This document shows, piece by piece, positions 5,973 to 10,795 of a stretch of 64,000 bases of DNA. The stretch is taken from contig NZ_JAANOW010000001.1 in NCBI RefSeq assembly GCF_011758805.1, positions 2,480,001 through 2,544,000 of the forward strand, read 5' to 3'. The notes below the pieces were generated by a model, which worked only from the letters and a program-made list of their open reading frames with translations, did not search any database and was not told the DNA's origin. The stretch is from Mycolicibacterium fluoranthenivorans. Lineage in GTDB: Bacteria > Actinomycetota > Actinomycetes > Mycobacteriales > Mycobacteriaceae. The position numbers and the translations under genes are program-made. How positions within the stretch are numbered: position 1 is the stretch's first letter; every line of letters starts with the position of its first letter.

Positions 5973-6416
5973 TCATCGGTCGTCGAGACGGAACACGGCC
6001 AGCCGCCCGGCCAGTGCCTCGAACTCCTCCGGTGTGCCGTGCACCACGAGCCCGGACCGTTTGGCGAACCCCACCCCGACCGGCACCTTCTGCGCGAACG
6101 CGCGCAACACGGGTCGGGACTGCTCGGCGGTCAGCTCGACGATGTGTACCCGGCGGGCGCGCCGGCCCCTGGTCAGCACGCCTGCGCCGGCGGCGCGGGC
6201 ATTGGCCGCCCAGTCCGCACCGGGGTAGCCGGCCACCGTGTACCACGCACCGCCGTACTCGAACGGCGTCATGGGTGTGCTGCGCGGTTGCCCGGTTTTG
6301 CGTCCCGGCACCGTGAGGACCTGCGACGGTCCGGTCGGCACCCCGAGCCGGCCCAGGGCGACCACCAGCTTGTTCATCGTCTTCAGCCAGCTCGGCGGTG
6401 TGGGGTCATCAGACAT
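5973..6416 (-). CDS. Deazaflavin (F420)-dependent nitroreductase family protein (DDN-like)
   Basis: This 147-residue protein starts at ATG 6416 and overlaps the end of the NmrA-like gene by 8 bases. It matches the mycobacterial DDN/split-beta-barrel family: VLTVPGRKTGQPRSTPMTPF (phosphate/F420 binding), then WYTVAGYPGADWAANARAAGAG, then a short LVVHGTPEEFEALAGRLAVFRLD end. Members use reduced F420 to reduce quinones, enones or nitro compounds, usually at the membrane. It is translationally coupled to the upstream NAD(P)H-binding protein, so both probably serve the same redox or detoxification task. It converges with the SDR gene, with 2 bases between the stop codons. Confidence 0.85.
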   Translation of the reverse strand: MSDDPTPPSWLKTMNKLVVALGRLGVPTGPSQVLTVPGRKTGQPRSTPMTPFEYGGAWYTVAGYPGADWAANARAAGAGVLTRGRRARRVHIVELTAEQSRPVLRAFAQKVPVGVGFAKRSGLVVHGTPEEFEALAGRLAVFRLDDR

Positions 6417-7263
6417 GTTCTGCTCCTTGATATTCGGTGAACAGGGCGAGGTTGGTGCCGACCCACCGGGCAAAGGTGGTGGCGGGCCGGCCGAGGATGC
6501 GCTGCACCTCGTCGGTGACCGGTGCCGGCCGGCCGACCCCGGCCTCGAGCAGGCCGATATAGGCGTCGGCGAACGCGGGGGGAAACCCGATGGCGGCGAA
6601 CCGCTCGCGCACCGCGTCGAGCGGCAGCTCGACATAGCGCAGGTCGCGGCCCAGTGCGGCGCCGATCACCTGCACCAGTTCGGTATTGGTCAGCGACTGC
6701 GGCCCGGTCAGTGGGATCCGCGTTCGGTCGAGGGTGTCGGTCAGCAGTGCGACGGCCGCCACCGCGGCGATATCGGCTTCGGCGATCACCGCGGTGCACG
6801 CCTGCGCGTACGGCCCGCTGACCACGTCGCCGGCTCTGATCTGCCCTGCCCACATCCCCGCGAAGTTCGAGGCGAACACCGTGGGCCGCAGGCTCACCCA
6901 GTCCAGGCCGGAGCCGACCGCGAGCTGTTCACACTCGCGGTTGCGATCACCGCGCACCCGCGAGGGCTGGCGCGCATCCTCGTCCTCGGCGTTGATCGCC
7001 GACAGCGCCACCAGCTTGCGCACCCCGTGCGACCGCGCCAGTTCCACGGTGGCCTCCAGTTCGCCGATGAGTGCGCGCGAGTTGAGGAGGACGGCGTCGG
7101 CGCCCGGCATCCCGGCCGCGGCGGTCGGCACCGCGGTGACCGACGGCGGGAAGGGCGAGGCCGAGCGGGTGACGGCGCGGACCGTCACCCCGGCGTCGAG
7201 TAGATGTGCGACGAGTGGGCGGCCGACATTACCGGTCGCCCCGGTGACCAGAATTGTTCTCAT
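6409..7263 (-). CDS. NAD(P)H-binding NmrA-like/atypical SDR protein
   Basis: This is a 284-residue protein beginning MRTILVTGATGNVGRPL, the extended Rossmann NAD(P) motif of NmrA/YtfG (quinone oxidoreductase or NADP sensor) proteins. Later segments include LVALSAINAEDEDARQ and WVSLRPTVFASNFAG, and a PLTGPQSLTNTELVQVIGAALGRDLRYVELPLDAVRERF region, all typical of the mycobacterial NmrA-like group. There is no classical YxxxK triad. It may be a quinone reductase or a redox sensor. The gene is divergent from the sigma-factor gene, and a perfect palindrome sits exactly between their start codons. Confidence 0.82.
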   Translation of the reverse strand: MRTILVTGATGNVGRPLVAHLLDAGVTVRAVTRSASPFPPSVTAVPTAAAGMPGADAVLLNSRALIGELEATVELARSHGVRKLVALSAINAEDEDARQPSRVRGDRNRECEQLAVGSGLDWVSLRPTVFASNFAGMWAGQIRAGDVVSGPYAQACTAVIAEADIAAVAAVALLTDTLDRTRIPLTGPQSLTNTELVQVIGAALGRDLRYVELPLDAVRERFAAIGFPPAFADAYIGLLEAGVGRPAPVTDEVQRILGRPATTFARWVGTNLALFTEYQGAEHV

Positions 7264-7290
7264 GCCCTCAAGGACGGAACCCCGGGGCGG

Positions 7291-7308
7291 AAAGTTACCC
7301 GTAACTTT
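7291..7308. promoter_or_regulatory. 18-bp perfect palindrome, candidate operator between NmrA-like gene and sigI
   Basis: AAAGTTAC-CC-GTAACTTT has two perfect 8-base arms with a 2-base centre. It is 27 bases from the NmrA-like start codon on one side and 26 bases from the sigI ATG on the other. Such symmetry and position fit an operator that controls both divergent genes. The binding regulator is not identified. Confidence 0.65.
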
Positions 7309-7334
7309 TTCCGGTGCGAGATCGTCATAACACC

Positions 7335-8174
7335 ATGACCGACTCGATCGACACCGCCTGGCGCGAGCAGCACGCCTACCTGGTGAACCTCGGCTACCAG
7401 CTGCTCGGCGATATCGGCGACGCCGAAGATGTTGCGCAGGAGGCGTTTCTGCGGCTGGCCCGGGCGGGCGAGCCCGTCGAGGACGTGCGGGCCTGGCTGA
7501 CGGTGGTGACGGGCCGGTTGTGTCTGGATCTGCTTCGCTCGGCGCGGGTGCGCCGCGTCCACCTCGGCGGGGACAGCGCCACGGCGACGGTCCCCGACCC
7601 CGCGCCGGGCCCCGCCGACCGGGTCACGCTGGACGACGAGGTCAGCGCGGCGCTGCTGGCGGTACTGCGCATGCTCAGCCCGGGGGAGCGGGTCGCGTTC
7701 GTGCTGCACGACGTCTTCGGGGCACCGTTCGAGGAGATCGCCACCACCGTGGGCCGGCCGGTGGGCACCTGCCGGCAGCTGGCCCGCCGGGCCCGGGCCA
7801 AGGTCACCGGGGCAGGACCCGGCCTGGTGGAGGTGACCCGGGCCGAGCACCGCCACGTCACCGAGGCGTTCATCACGGCCTGCGCCAACGGCGACCTGAC
7901 CGCGCTGACCGCGGTGCTGGACCCCGAGGTCTGGGGGGTGGGCACGGTGCTGGCCGATCCGCCCGTGCCCGCACAGGTGAATCACGGGCGGCACGATGTC
8001 GCGGTGAACCTGCTGCGCTACCTGGGGCCGGGCGCCACCGTGGTGTGCGCGGCCGAACCGGTGCTGCTGGCCTTCGACCGCGGCCGGTTGTTCGCGGTGG
8101 TGGTGCTGACGTTGCGCGGCGAGCGGGTCATGAAGATCGAAGCCACCGCCGACCCGGCCGCCCGTCAACCGTAG
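7335..8174 (+). CDS. sigI: ECF RNA polymerase sigma factor, SigI/SigJ type
   Basis: This is a 279-residue extracytoplasmic-function sigma factor with a C-terminal SnoaL-like extension (about residues 175-279). Sigma region 2 is seen at about residues 10-70 ([28 protein letters not shown] and the [12 protein letters not shown] helix ending in [13 protein letters not shown]). Sigma region 4 follows at about 110-160 ([49 protein letters not shown]). The wording resembles M. tuberculosis SigI more than SigJ, from memory. This class works without a classical anti-sigma factor; the SnoaL-like domain is thought to control activity. ATG 7335 is chosen because the upstream in-frame codons would run towards the palindrome. 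It converges with dipZ, overlapping its end by 10 bases. Confidence 0.85.
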
Positions 8175-9850
8175 GTGAACGAATACGCCTGCAGGCCCTG
8201 GGATAACGTCACGTCGAGATGGCCGGGCCCGGTGGAGTCGCCCGCGACGATCTGCCGCATGTTGGGTGGTCCGCGCACGGGGATGCGCCGGGTGCCGCCG
8301 GTGGTGGTCACCTCGACGGTGCCGGTGCCGCCGACGACGAGATAAACGTTGCGGGCGTGGTAGTTCAGCGCGATCTGGGCGCCGTAGGCCGCGGCGGTGG
8401 CGCCCTGGTAGTCGAGTCGCCACGGGCCGCGCAGGGCGAAGGTGTCGTCGGCCAGACGGGCCGGGAGATCGAAGGTCGCGGTGCCTTGGTCGTAGGTGCC
8501 GGTGCCGCCGTAGTTCACCACTTTCCCCACGCTGAGGTAGGTCTCCGGGGTGAGCTGCGAGCGGGGGGTGGTGTCGGGTGCGCCGGTCGGCGGGGGCAGG
8601 GTACGGTCCGGATGGGCCTGGGAGAGCAGCTCTCTGATGAGTTTCTCGGTGACGTCATAGTCGCCCTCTCCGAACTTCACGTGCCGGACGGTGCCGTCGG
8701 CGTCGATCAGGTAGTGGGCGGGCCAATAGCGGTTGCGGTAGTTGGTCCAGGTGGCGTAACCGTTGTCCAGCGCGACGGGGTAGGTGATGCCCAGATCGCG
8801 GGCCCCGCCCGCGACGTTGGCCGGAACCCGTTCGAAGGCGTACTCCGGGGTGTGGACACCGATGACGTCGAACCCGGCGTCCCGGTAGGCGCGGTACCAG
8901 TCGGTGACGTGCGGGATGCTGCGCTGGCAATTGATGCACGAATAGGCCCAGAAGTCGATGAGCACCACCTTGCCGCGTAGGGCCGCGAGGTCGACAGCGG
9001 AGTTCCCCGGTGTGTTCAGCCACGCCGTGATGCCCTTGATATCCGGTGCCGGGCCGCAACTTTCGAGTTCGGGTGCGCCGTCGGAGCAATTGGACAGCGC
9101 GGCATTCTGGTCGTTGACGATCCCGCCCAGGTTGAGTGTGTCGCGGATCTGCCGGTCGCCGCCGACGGCATCGGACAGCGCTGCCGCGTAGTCGGGTACG
9201 ACACGCTGCAGGTGGGCCGGAAGGTCGAACACCAGGGCCACCGCCAGCGCGAGGGTGACGAGGCCGGCCGAGACGCGGATGCCACGCTGGCGGCGGCGGA
9301 AGGCACCGACGCGTGCGCTCACCCGCCGCCCGGCCAGCGCGAAGAAGAGCAGCGGCAGTGCCGCGCCGATCGCGAACGAAGCGGTGAGCGCCACCGTGGG
9401 CAACCCGATATTGCCGGTGGCGCCGGCCAGGATGATCGCGGCCAGCACCGGCCCCGCGCAGGGCACGTACAACACGCCCAAGGCCAGACCGAGCCCGAAA
9501 CCCGAAGTTCCGGAACCGAATTGCCGTTGCGGCAGCCGGGCGAACGGTTTCTCCAGAATCGCCTCGAACCGGGGGAAGATCAACCCGATACCGATGGCTG
9601 TCAGGGCGGCCAGCGCCACCCATCGCAGCGCGTCCTGCGGGAGATTCAGCAGCGACAACACCGCCGAACCGGCCAGGGTCACGGCGGTGAAGCTCAGCAC
9701 CAGGCCGGCGATCACCAGATAGGGCCGGCGTGCGGAGGTGGGTCCACTCTGGGTGCCGGAGAAGAAGATCACCGGTAGTACCGGCAGGATGCACGGCGAG
9801 ATGCCGGTGATCAGACCGCCGAGAAGACCGATGGCGATGACGGTGAGCAT
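8165..9850 (-). CDS. dipZ: DipZ: CcdA-type membrane reductant carrier fused to thioredoxin domain
   Basis: This 561-residue protein starts at ATG 9850 with a hydrophobic helix containing SPC (residues 18-20), the first redox Cys of the CcdA/DsbD membrane domain. The partner Cys lies in [12 protein letters not shown]. About six TM helices fill residues 1-230. A periplasmic thioredoxin/TlpA-like domain follows ([17 protein letters not shown], CxxC near residue 305), then a C-terminal beta-rich domain (about 430-561). It transfers cytoplasmic reducing power across the membrane to exported thiol proteins or cytochrome c assembly. In M. tuberculosis dipZ lies between mpt83 and mpt70; here it lies directly behind the fasciclin gene in the same direction. 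Confidence 0.92.
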
Positions 9851-9876
9851 GCGCGCGACTTCCCGATCGATCCAGG

Positions 9877-9930
9877 CACGTGCGGCGCCCCGAGTGCCAC
9901 GGGGGGGTGCGAATCGGGACGCCGCACGTG
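9877..9930. repeat. Large inverted repeat (hairpin) between fasciclin gene and dipZ
   Basis: CACGTGCGGCG (9877-9887) and its exact complement CGCCGCACGTG (9920-9930) flank 32 bases. On the minus-strand transcript a G-U pair and three more C-G pairs lengthen the stem to about 15 bp with a 24-base loop. There is no U-tract, so an attenuator, RNA-stability or processing element is more likely than a simple terminator. Confidence 0.6.
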
Positions 9931-9954
9931 GGTTCTGTGGTGCTGCAGCGGGAC

Positions 9955-10632
9955 TCAGGCCGGTGGCATGAGCACGGTGTCGATCATGTAGACGGTGGCA
10001 TTGGCGGTCTTGACGCCGCCGCACACCAGGCCCGCGTCGTTGACCTTGAGCCCCGGACCCGATCCGGTCACGGTGACGGTGCCGCCCTGGAGCGTCTTGT
10101 GCTGTCCGGTGACCTGCATGGGGCTGGCCTGCCCCTCGACCACGTGATAGGTGAGGATCTTGGTCAGCAGATCCGAATCGGTTTTGAGCTTGTCCAGGGT
10201 GGCCGCGTCGATCTTGGCGAAGGCGTCATCGGTCGGCGCGAACACGGTGAGACCGGGGTTACTGTTCAGCGTGTCGACCAGGTTGACGTTCGGATTGAGC
10301 TTGCCCGACAACGCCGAGGTCAGCGTCGTGAGCATGGGGTTGTTCGAGGCGGCCACGGCAACCGGGTCCTGTGCCATCCCGGTGACCGAACCGGGCCCGC
10401 TGGGCACCTGCTGCGCGTAGGCGGCGCACCCGTTGCCGACCAGACCGGCGGCGGGATCGGCCATCGCCGAAGTCGCCGCGGGCGAGGTCATCGGAGTCAT
10501 GCTCGCCGAGGTGCTGGTTTCCGGTGCGGCACTGGCGTTCGTGGACGAATCCTTCGCACACGCAATACCGCCGAAGAGGGTGACCGCCGAAAGACCGATC
10601 ACCGCGAGTGTTTTCGATTGAGTTCTGTTCAT
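9955..10632 (-). CDS. Fasciclin-domain lipoprotein, MPT83/MPT70 family
   Basis: This is a 225-residue exported protein. Residues 1-25 form a signal peptide ending LFGGIAC, an imperfect lipobox with Cys at 26. A Ser/Thr/Ala/Pro-rich linker follows to about residue 60, then one FAS1 domain (about 85-222) with [26 protein letters not shown] and the H-box-like LTYHVVEGQ. Cysteines in VGNGCAAY and GLVCGG would make the disulfide typical of MPT70/MPT83. These surface proteins are linked to host or matrix binding and are produced under SigK. It lies upstream of dipZ, which may help to form that disulfide, and has a SigK-type promoter. Confidence 0.9.
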
Positions 10633-10689
10633 CACTGTTGTCACTCGAATCTGTTCCGGAGCGGTCTTTTGGGCCGCCCTCACCGATGT

Positions 10690-10716
10690 ATTCGGTGCGA
10701 TGTGCGGCCCGGATGG
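10690..10716 (-). promoter_or_regulatory. SigK-type promoter (CCATCC-N16-CGAAT) of the fasciclin gene
   Basis: On the minus strand CCATCC (10716 to 10711) is followed after 16 bases by CGAAT (10694 to 10690). This is the element known for the SigK regulon (mpt70, mpt83, sigK) in mycobacteria. It is about 57 bases upstream of the start codon at 10632. The sigK/rskA pair itself is not in the window. Confidence 0.75.
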
Positions 10717-10795
10717 GTGACCTGCCGAGCCGGCGTGACACGACGCATCCGGCGTCGATTCCGCCGGGGGTGATCCCACGCGGCACAATGGGACG

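Follow-up and report, generated by a model that had tools for sequence, protein, structure and literature searches.

The question raised by this locus is what a perfect 18-bp palindrome is doing between two divergent genes, one for an NmrA-like protein and the other for the ECF sigma factor SigI. The palindrome, AAAGTTAC-CC-GTAACTTT, occupies positions 7291-7308 of the window (the whole 64-kb stretch of DNA that was analysed), 27 bases from the ATG of the NmrA-like gene (7263, minus strand) and 26 bases from that of sigI (7335, plus strand). A preliminary description of the locus gave this sequence and these distances, and both were confirmed. It took the palindrome for a symmetric site of a regulator; in our opinion, the arms are instead most likely -35 elements, one for each of two ECF-type promoters that diverge from here. 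The features concerned are the following.

5973..6416, minus strand: DDN-like F420H2-dependent quinone reductase family protein (Pfam F420H2_quin_red)
6409..7263, minus strand: NmrA-like NAD(P)-binding protein (Pfam NAD_binding_10, NmrA, Epimerase)
7273..7276, minus strand: -10 element CGTC of the predicted NmrA-like operon promoter, 9 nt before the ATG
7291..7298, minus strand: -35 element GTAACTTT of the predicted NmrA-like operon promoter (84/89 loci at N17, L038 at N18)
7291..7308, no strand: 18-bp palindrome, predicted to consist of the -35 elements, facing each other, of two divergent ECF-type promoters (sequence and conservation)
7301..7308, plus strand: -35 element GTAACTTT of the predicted sigI promoter (GTAAC-N17-CGTC in 88/88 readable orthologue loci)
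7323..7326, plus strand: -10 element CGTC of the predicted sigI promoter, 17 nt past GTAAC and 8 nt before the ATG
7335..8174, plus strand: sigI, ECF sigma factor (NCBIfam NF007213; Pfam Sigma70_r2, r4_2)

The identity of SigI follows from the NCBIfam SigI equivalog NF007213 (339.5 bits, above the curated cut-off of 317). Pfam reported no SnoaL domain in the protein; its structure model (pLDDT only 64.5) matched the structures of SigG1 and SigJ as well as NTF2-like folds. The domains are those expected of an ECF41 factor, namely sigma2 and sigma4 followed by a SnoaL/NTF2-like C-terminal extension, the extension being recognised by fold match only, at the pLDDT just given. In a sequence search, the nearest relative with a solved structure was M. 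tuberculosis SigJ (PDB 5xe7; E 2.4e-31). On the other side of the palindrome, the DDN-like gene overlaps the end of the NmrA-like gene and the two therefore probably form one operon. The neighbours of sigI in the window are the NmrA/Epimerase and F420H2_quin_red proteins and a DsbD/redoxin protein. The latter, a DsbD/redoxin fusion, lies next to sigI together with a fasciclin-domain protein (8168-10773), an arrangement that we take to be reminiscent of the dipZ/mpt83 group.

Symmetry alone is no proof of function, because the frequency of such palindromes in the window does not exceed chance: nine inverted repeats (arms of 8 or more, loop no longer than 2) were counted, against 8.1 ± 2.6 in 30 first-order Markov simulations of the 64 kb. 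No further copy of the exact palindrome was found elsewhere in the window, even with up to three mismatches allowed. What goes beyond chance is the sequence following each arm, and its conservation. Read outwards, both arms continue as GTAAC, 17 bases and CGTC, on the plus strand at 7301-7326 and on the minus strand at 7298-7273. Each arm on its own strand therefore reads GTAACTTT-N14-CGTC, rightwards into sigI and leftwards into the NmrA-like/F420 operon, and GTAAC-N17-CGTC is, as far as sequence can tell, the layout of ECF sigma promoters. Neither sigma-70-like promoters nor terminators were found within 7200-7400. A functionless chance palindrome would fit the background frequency in the window, and it is hardly credible in view of the recurrence of both promoters across orthologues of 57-84% protein identity.

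This recurrence was followed in loci picked by SigI protein similarity, with no use of the motif. All eight named mycobacterial loci (L006-L013) contain GTAAC-N17-CGTC on both strands; such promoters were not found in four more distant Actinomadura relatives (L014-L017). Within the genus, SigI relatives (E <= 1e-40) were present in 93 of 198 genomes at 101 places, all of which were retrieved and divided into 89 orthologues (at least 55% identity) and 12 paralogues. The sigI-side GTAAC-N17-CGTC stands in all 88 readable orthologue loci; L108 is a partial gene and unreadable, and its genome (G134) has the promoter pair on another contig. The opposite promoter was found in 85 of the 88, at N17 in 84 of them (GTAAC or GTCAC) and at N18 in L038. 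By arithmetic from the density in G000, the window's own genome (77 sites over three spacings and both strands), the chance of a given spacing per upstream stretch is well under 1%. NmrA and/or DDN-like genes lie upstream in 83 of the 84 loci with the left promoter; in the other, L036, the contig starts too near for genes to be in view. At L101-L103, a DDN-like gene was found and NmrA was not, and the left promoter is kept in its GTCAC form. The combined pattern GACG-N17-GTKAC-N0-30-GTMAC-N17-CGTC matched 206 of 396 genomes, against 14 for the reversed control. In a search beyond the genus (E <= 1e-60), SigI was found in seven of 201 family genomes, all of them of its own genus (one of 31 genera).

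Within the orthologue loci, the three T behind GTAAC on the sigI side carry 1.6-1.8 bits each, and conservation of the bases between the arms and of most spacer positions is weak. The first ATG comes 8 nt past CGTC in 58 of the 88 loci, a distance which suggests that the sigI mRNA is leaderless or nearly so.

Conservation of the palindrome in relatives had been named in the preliminary description as a check on the regulator site, and the palindrome does not pass it: its arms vary while both promoters recur at nearly every SigI orthologue locus. In nine of the 84 loci, all of one clade (the GTCAC type), the left arm on the plus strand reads GTGAC instead of GTTAC, so that the symmetry as such is not kept. 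A gap of 2 bp, on which the perfect palindrome depends, was seen only in G000, G234, G255 and G377, or three of 297 genus genomes plus G377. Over 181 SigI-type pairs, gaps of 2 (4 pairs), 4 (5), 10-13 (143) and 20-25 bp (29) were observed, and none of 5-9 or 14-19. Of these pairs, 85 are anchored on SigI, and 96 were found by motif alone and read by eye, one per genome, in genomes G198 and above; second-site pairs were left out.

These data bear on the original view of the palindrome as the operator of a dimeric regulator, be it repressor or activator, whose gene lies elsewhere. The symmetry is indeed perfect in the source species, and the stepped gap could fit a protein sitting between the promoters. 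A fixed half-site spacing is, however, lacking, with 2 bp in 4 of 181 pairs and 4, 10-13 or 20-25 in the others; moreover, the arms diverge independently (GTGAC vs GTTAC), a lone arm is kept with its CGTC where the partner gene is gone, and a dimer site needs no CGTC 17 nt outward on each side. An operator of this kind is very unlikely in our estimation. The nearby MerR was also considered as the binder and rejected. A MerR relative occurs in two of the eight named mycobacterial loci (L009, L011), a weak count because the 3-kb flank may cut off MerR in the remaining ones, and a MerR operator is unnecessary since the promoter reading suffices. Common control of the two genes by one regulator, as first proposed, probably does hold, tied to the SnoaL-extended ECF factor; it is the separate, unlinked regulator that most likely falls away. 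Nor, most likely, does the palindrome lack an adjoining regulator gene, as had been stated, the most likely regulator being SigI itself.

Loci where sigI and its putative target are apart are instructive. The left promoter was not found in L058, L084 and L095, and these three have no NmrA or DDN-like gene in the upstream stretch. In the three genomes concerned (G189, G060 and G186), the NmrA gene sits elsewhere, and GTAAC-N17-CGTC precedes the relocated gene in all three cases (L133, L134, L144). In G060 and G189 the relocated NmrA gene is followed by the DDN-like gene, again in a back-to-back promoter pair, in which the partner promoter reads towards genes for a small protein and a multicopper oxidase. 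The sigI gene of G060 (L084, L125), apart from NmrA, is situated downstream of type VII secretion EccE and EccA (by Pfam, in G060 alone). NmrA relatives were detected in 78 of the 198 genomes, 76 of them with SigI. A SigI-type promoter was found neither at the NmrA relatives of the two SigI-less genomes (G154, G158) nor at second NmrA copies in SigI-containing ones (G035 C17, G159 C19). At least the G154 relative, whose upstream sequence is similar to the one preceding the second NmrA gene of G035, seems to be a paralogue.

The multicopper oxidase was found in 12 of the 198 genomes, all SigI-containing, and in eight of the 12 GTAACTTT-N14-CGTC lies within about 650 bp upstream on the same strand. 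At the oxidases of G017, G131 and G163 (69-73% identity) no SigI-type promoter was present in the stretch read, and that of G103 was unreadable for promoters. The three negative cases argue against a universal link of this operon to SigI.

A second SigI-type back-to-back pair was seen at L133, L134, L122-L124 and L141 (genomes G060, G189, G118, G265, G238 and G062), with the small protein and the multicopper oxidase on one side and, where genes could be named, NmrA/DDN-like or DoxX-like genes on the other. Opposite the multicopper oxidase promoters, DDN-like genes (L124, L141) or a DoxX-like gene (L122) were identified. Since open reading frames at second sites were picked mechanically, those that were unconvincing as genes were not used (the minus sides of L122, first frame, L123 and L135, as well as L136, L138 and L140); L147 and L151 were of insufficient length for a reading. 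Single SigI-type sites occur in the SigI-containing genomes G017 (L136), G116 (L139) and G051 (L140), and the second open reading frame past the site at L139 encodes a distant NmrA relative with 31% identity.

Across the 198 genomes, GTAACTTT-N14-CGTC is present in 87 of 89 genomes with SigI (179 sites) versus 22 of 109 without it (26 sites), and a reversed-pattern control gave 24 sites in the whole set. This association is partly built in, since most of the 179 sites belong to the sigI locus; what is informative is the trans sites and the lack of pairs in SigI-less genomes. No GTAACTTT pair was found in these 109 genomes; only G174 and G181 have sites on both strands, and these are on different contigs. 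Two genomes with SigI, G019 and G053, lack the strict 8-mer, yet in both of them GTAAC-N17-CGTC precedes sigI. A recurring GTAACTTTACCTTGAAG...CGTC match is shared by the SigI-less genomes G016, G022, G073, G078 and G086 and likewise by G101, G130, G150, G174 and G181, and probably represents some unrelated sequence that is conserved.

The idea of a large SigI regulon in G000 found no support. The strict motif matches only the two arms there, and GTAAC-N16-18-CGTC, the looser form, shows no enrichment (77 sites on both strands vs 90 in the control), so that the predicted regulon in this genome is the palindrome locus alone. Wecke et al. came to a similar view of ECF41 factors, each of which in general governs just one target gene or operon (PMC3426412).

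SigI has been given, together with SigJ, as an example of ECF41 in the part of a review accessible to us (PMC8999054). In the accessible text of PMC3426412, the ECF41 promoter TGTCACA-n16-CGTC precedes the ECF gene and genes for a carboxymuconolactone decarboxylase, an oxidoreductase or an NmrA/epimerase, the epimerase class being recognised there by an NmrA (PF05368) or Epimerase (PF01370) domain. The same text counts 55 ECF41 loci (15%) of the <ECF< >COE> layout; the motif precedes the ECF gene in 36 of them and the COE gene in 41. As far as that source goes, the SigI locus shares with ECF41 loci an ECF factor with a C-terminal extension, a target of NmrA/epimerase or oxidoreductase type and one bipartite promoter type before both genes with CGTC at equal register. 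By its domains, the NmrA-like protein belongs to the NmrA/Epimerase class of targets as defined there. A COE-type target stands beside sigI, no anti-sigma gene is adjacent, and CGTC falls within the spacer of 16 ± 1 from the -35 that is expected of ECF41-type promoters (GTMAC-N17-CGTC, counted from the GT.AC core). The -35 element differs: GTAACTTT in place of the TGTCACA of PMC3426412, and all 88 readable loci have GTAAC in the promoter facing sigI. The SigI locus also departs from ECF41 loci in that its -35 elements nearly touch and their gap seems stepped, and the word "palindrome" is absent from the accessible text of PMC3426412. The ECF41 signatures WLPEP (linker) and NPDKL (extension) did not turn up in any of the 100 SigI orthologue rows (at least three of them duplicates); among 16 paralogue rows, some partial, WLPEP occurs in three and NPDKL in none. 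The recognition part of region 4 is nearly invariant among the orthologue rows.

SigG1, an ECF56 factor (PDB 7qh5), is the structure that the SigI model (pLDDT 64.5) matches best, with SigJ nearly equal. In the portion of PMC7730460 available, SigG1 resembles SigI in having a SnoaL_2 extension and in the lack of NPDKL, and differs from it in having an adjacent anti-sigma gene and no clear ChIP peak by its own promoter. SigJ of M. tuberculosis (PDB 5xe7) has the overall architecture of SigI and is a separate factor.

The main rival explanation keeps the same two promoters and has them read mainly by another, SigJ-like factor of ECF41 type, with SigI downstream in a cascade. M. tuberculosis SigJ is reported as a regulator of sigI in the accessible part of PMC4821874, which makes cross-recognition possible; the TGTCACA and GTAACTTT promoters have register and -10 element in common; and the GTCAC-type left arm of one clade (9 of 84 loci) points the same way. 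Against it stand the paralogue loci: ten of 12 (L110-L117, L119, L120) have TGTCACAT or GTCACACT upstream by eye, whereas SigI loci have GTAACTTT; no such upstream element was seen by eye at L118 and L121. These paralogues, 38-50% identical to SigI and not identified as SigJ, are mostly behind TGTCACA-like promoters. Further counter-evidence comes from the 109 SigI-less genomes without any GTAACTTT pair and from the two SigI-less NmrA relatives without the promoter. Because the promoter type goes with SigI and is distinct from the TGTCACA-like elements at ten of 12 paralogue loci, SigI is the economical choice of sigma factor, and we regard the rival as improbable.

It is highly likely, in our judgement, that the palindrome belongs to a divergent pair of promoters through which SigI regulates its own gene, a variation on the layout known from ECF41 loci. 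RNA polymerase with SigI, rather than with a related ECF factor, would recognise GTAACTTT as the -35 element and CGTC, 17 nt past GTAAC, as the -10 element. Since the two -35 elements are immediate neighbours and point in opposite directions, a single stretch of 54 bp (7273-7326) could drive transcription to either side. Rightward firing would transcribe sigI and amount to positive autoregulation, and leftward firing would make the NmrA-like/F420-reductase operon the SigI target. Kept inactive, presumably by its SnoaL-like extension, SigI would leave both sides quiet; its release by some signal would raise sigI and the target operon together.

A bolder idea, which we hold as possible and rather doubtful, is that the opposed -35 elements are constrained to spacings which differ by roughly one helical turn (2-4, 10-13 and 20-25 bp at sigI), the pair being one bidirectional device. 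Two SigI holoenzyme sites would then keep a set rotational relation instead of acting as independent promoters, possibly through contact of sigma or SnoaL domains or through mutual exclusion at a set face. In a quick SigI tree of 96 rows, in which two long branches meet, 12 changes are required to explain the gap classes; the 20-25 class by itself takes nine, of which well-supported branches force six. Gap 4 apparently derives from 11 by a 7-bp step. Rough phasing probabilities were 4.5e-3 (7 events) and 9.3e-5 (12), with allowed gap values chosen after the data had been seen. The second-site gaps are 8 (G118, G265), 10 (G001, G036, G062, G080, G224, G248), 11 (G060) and 12 (G189, G238), and the two pairs with gap 8, in the range avoided by sigI pairs, lower the odds for phasing. 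Phasing is loose in at least 33 TGTCACA-type pairs, for which gaps of 1 (10 pairs), 2, 5, 7, 9 (2), 11 (7), 12 (2), 13 (2), 14 (2), 23, 25, 27 and 28 (2) were found among the matches listed, those looking coding or accidental having been set aside by eye.

Two further observations concern the gap. Between the -35 elements of G092 and G310, which are 21 and 22 bp apart, there is one more copy of GTTAC or GTAAC, as if the longer gap had come about by duplicating an arm. TGTCACA-type ECF41 promoters standing back to back with a 1-bp gap (GTGAC-N-GTCAC) give near palindromes at other loci, among the matches listed at G142:C32, G239:C3, G273:C2, G246:C10 and others.

In a literature search largely without subscription papers, no description of the GTAACTTT promoter for SigI was found, and its absence is unproven. 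Summarizing, SigI, the control of which the preliminary description called poorly understood, gains a predicted promoter, GTAACTTT-N14-CGTC, a predicted target operon and a small predicted regulon. Back-to-back sigma promoters can be mistaken for the palindrome of a transcription factor. If the stepped spacing is true, coupling between divergent alternative-sigma promoters would become testable.
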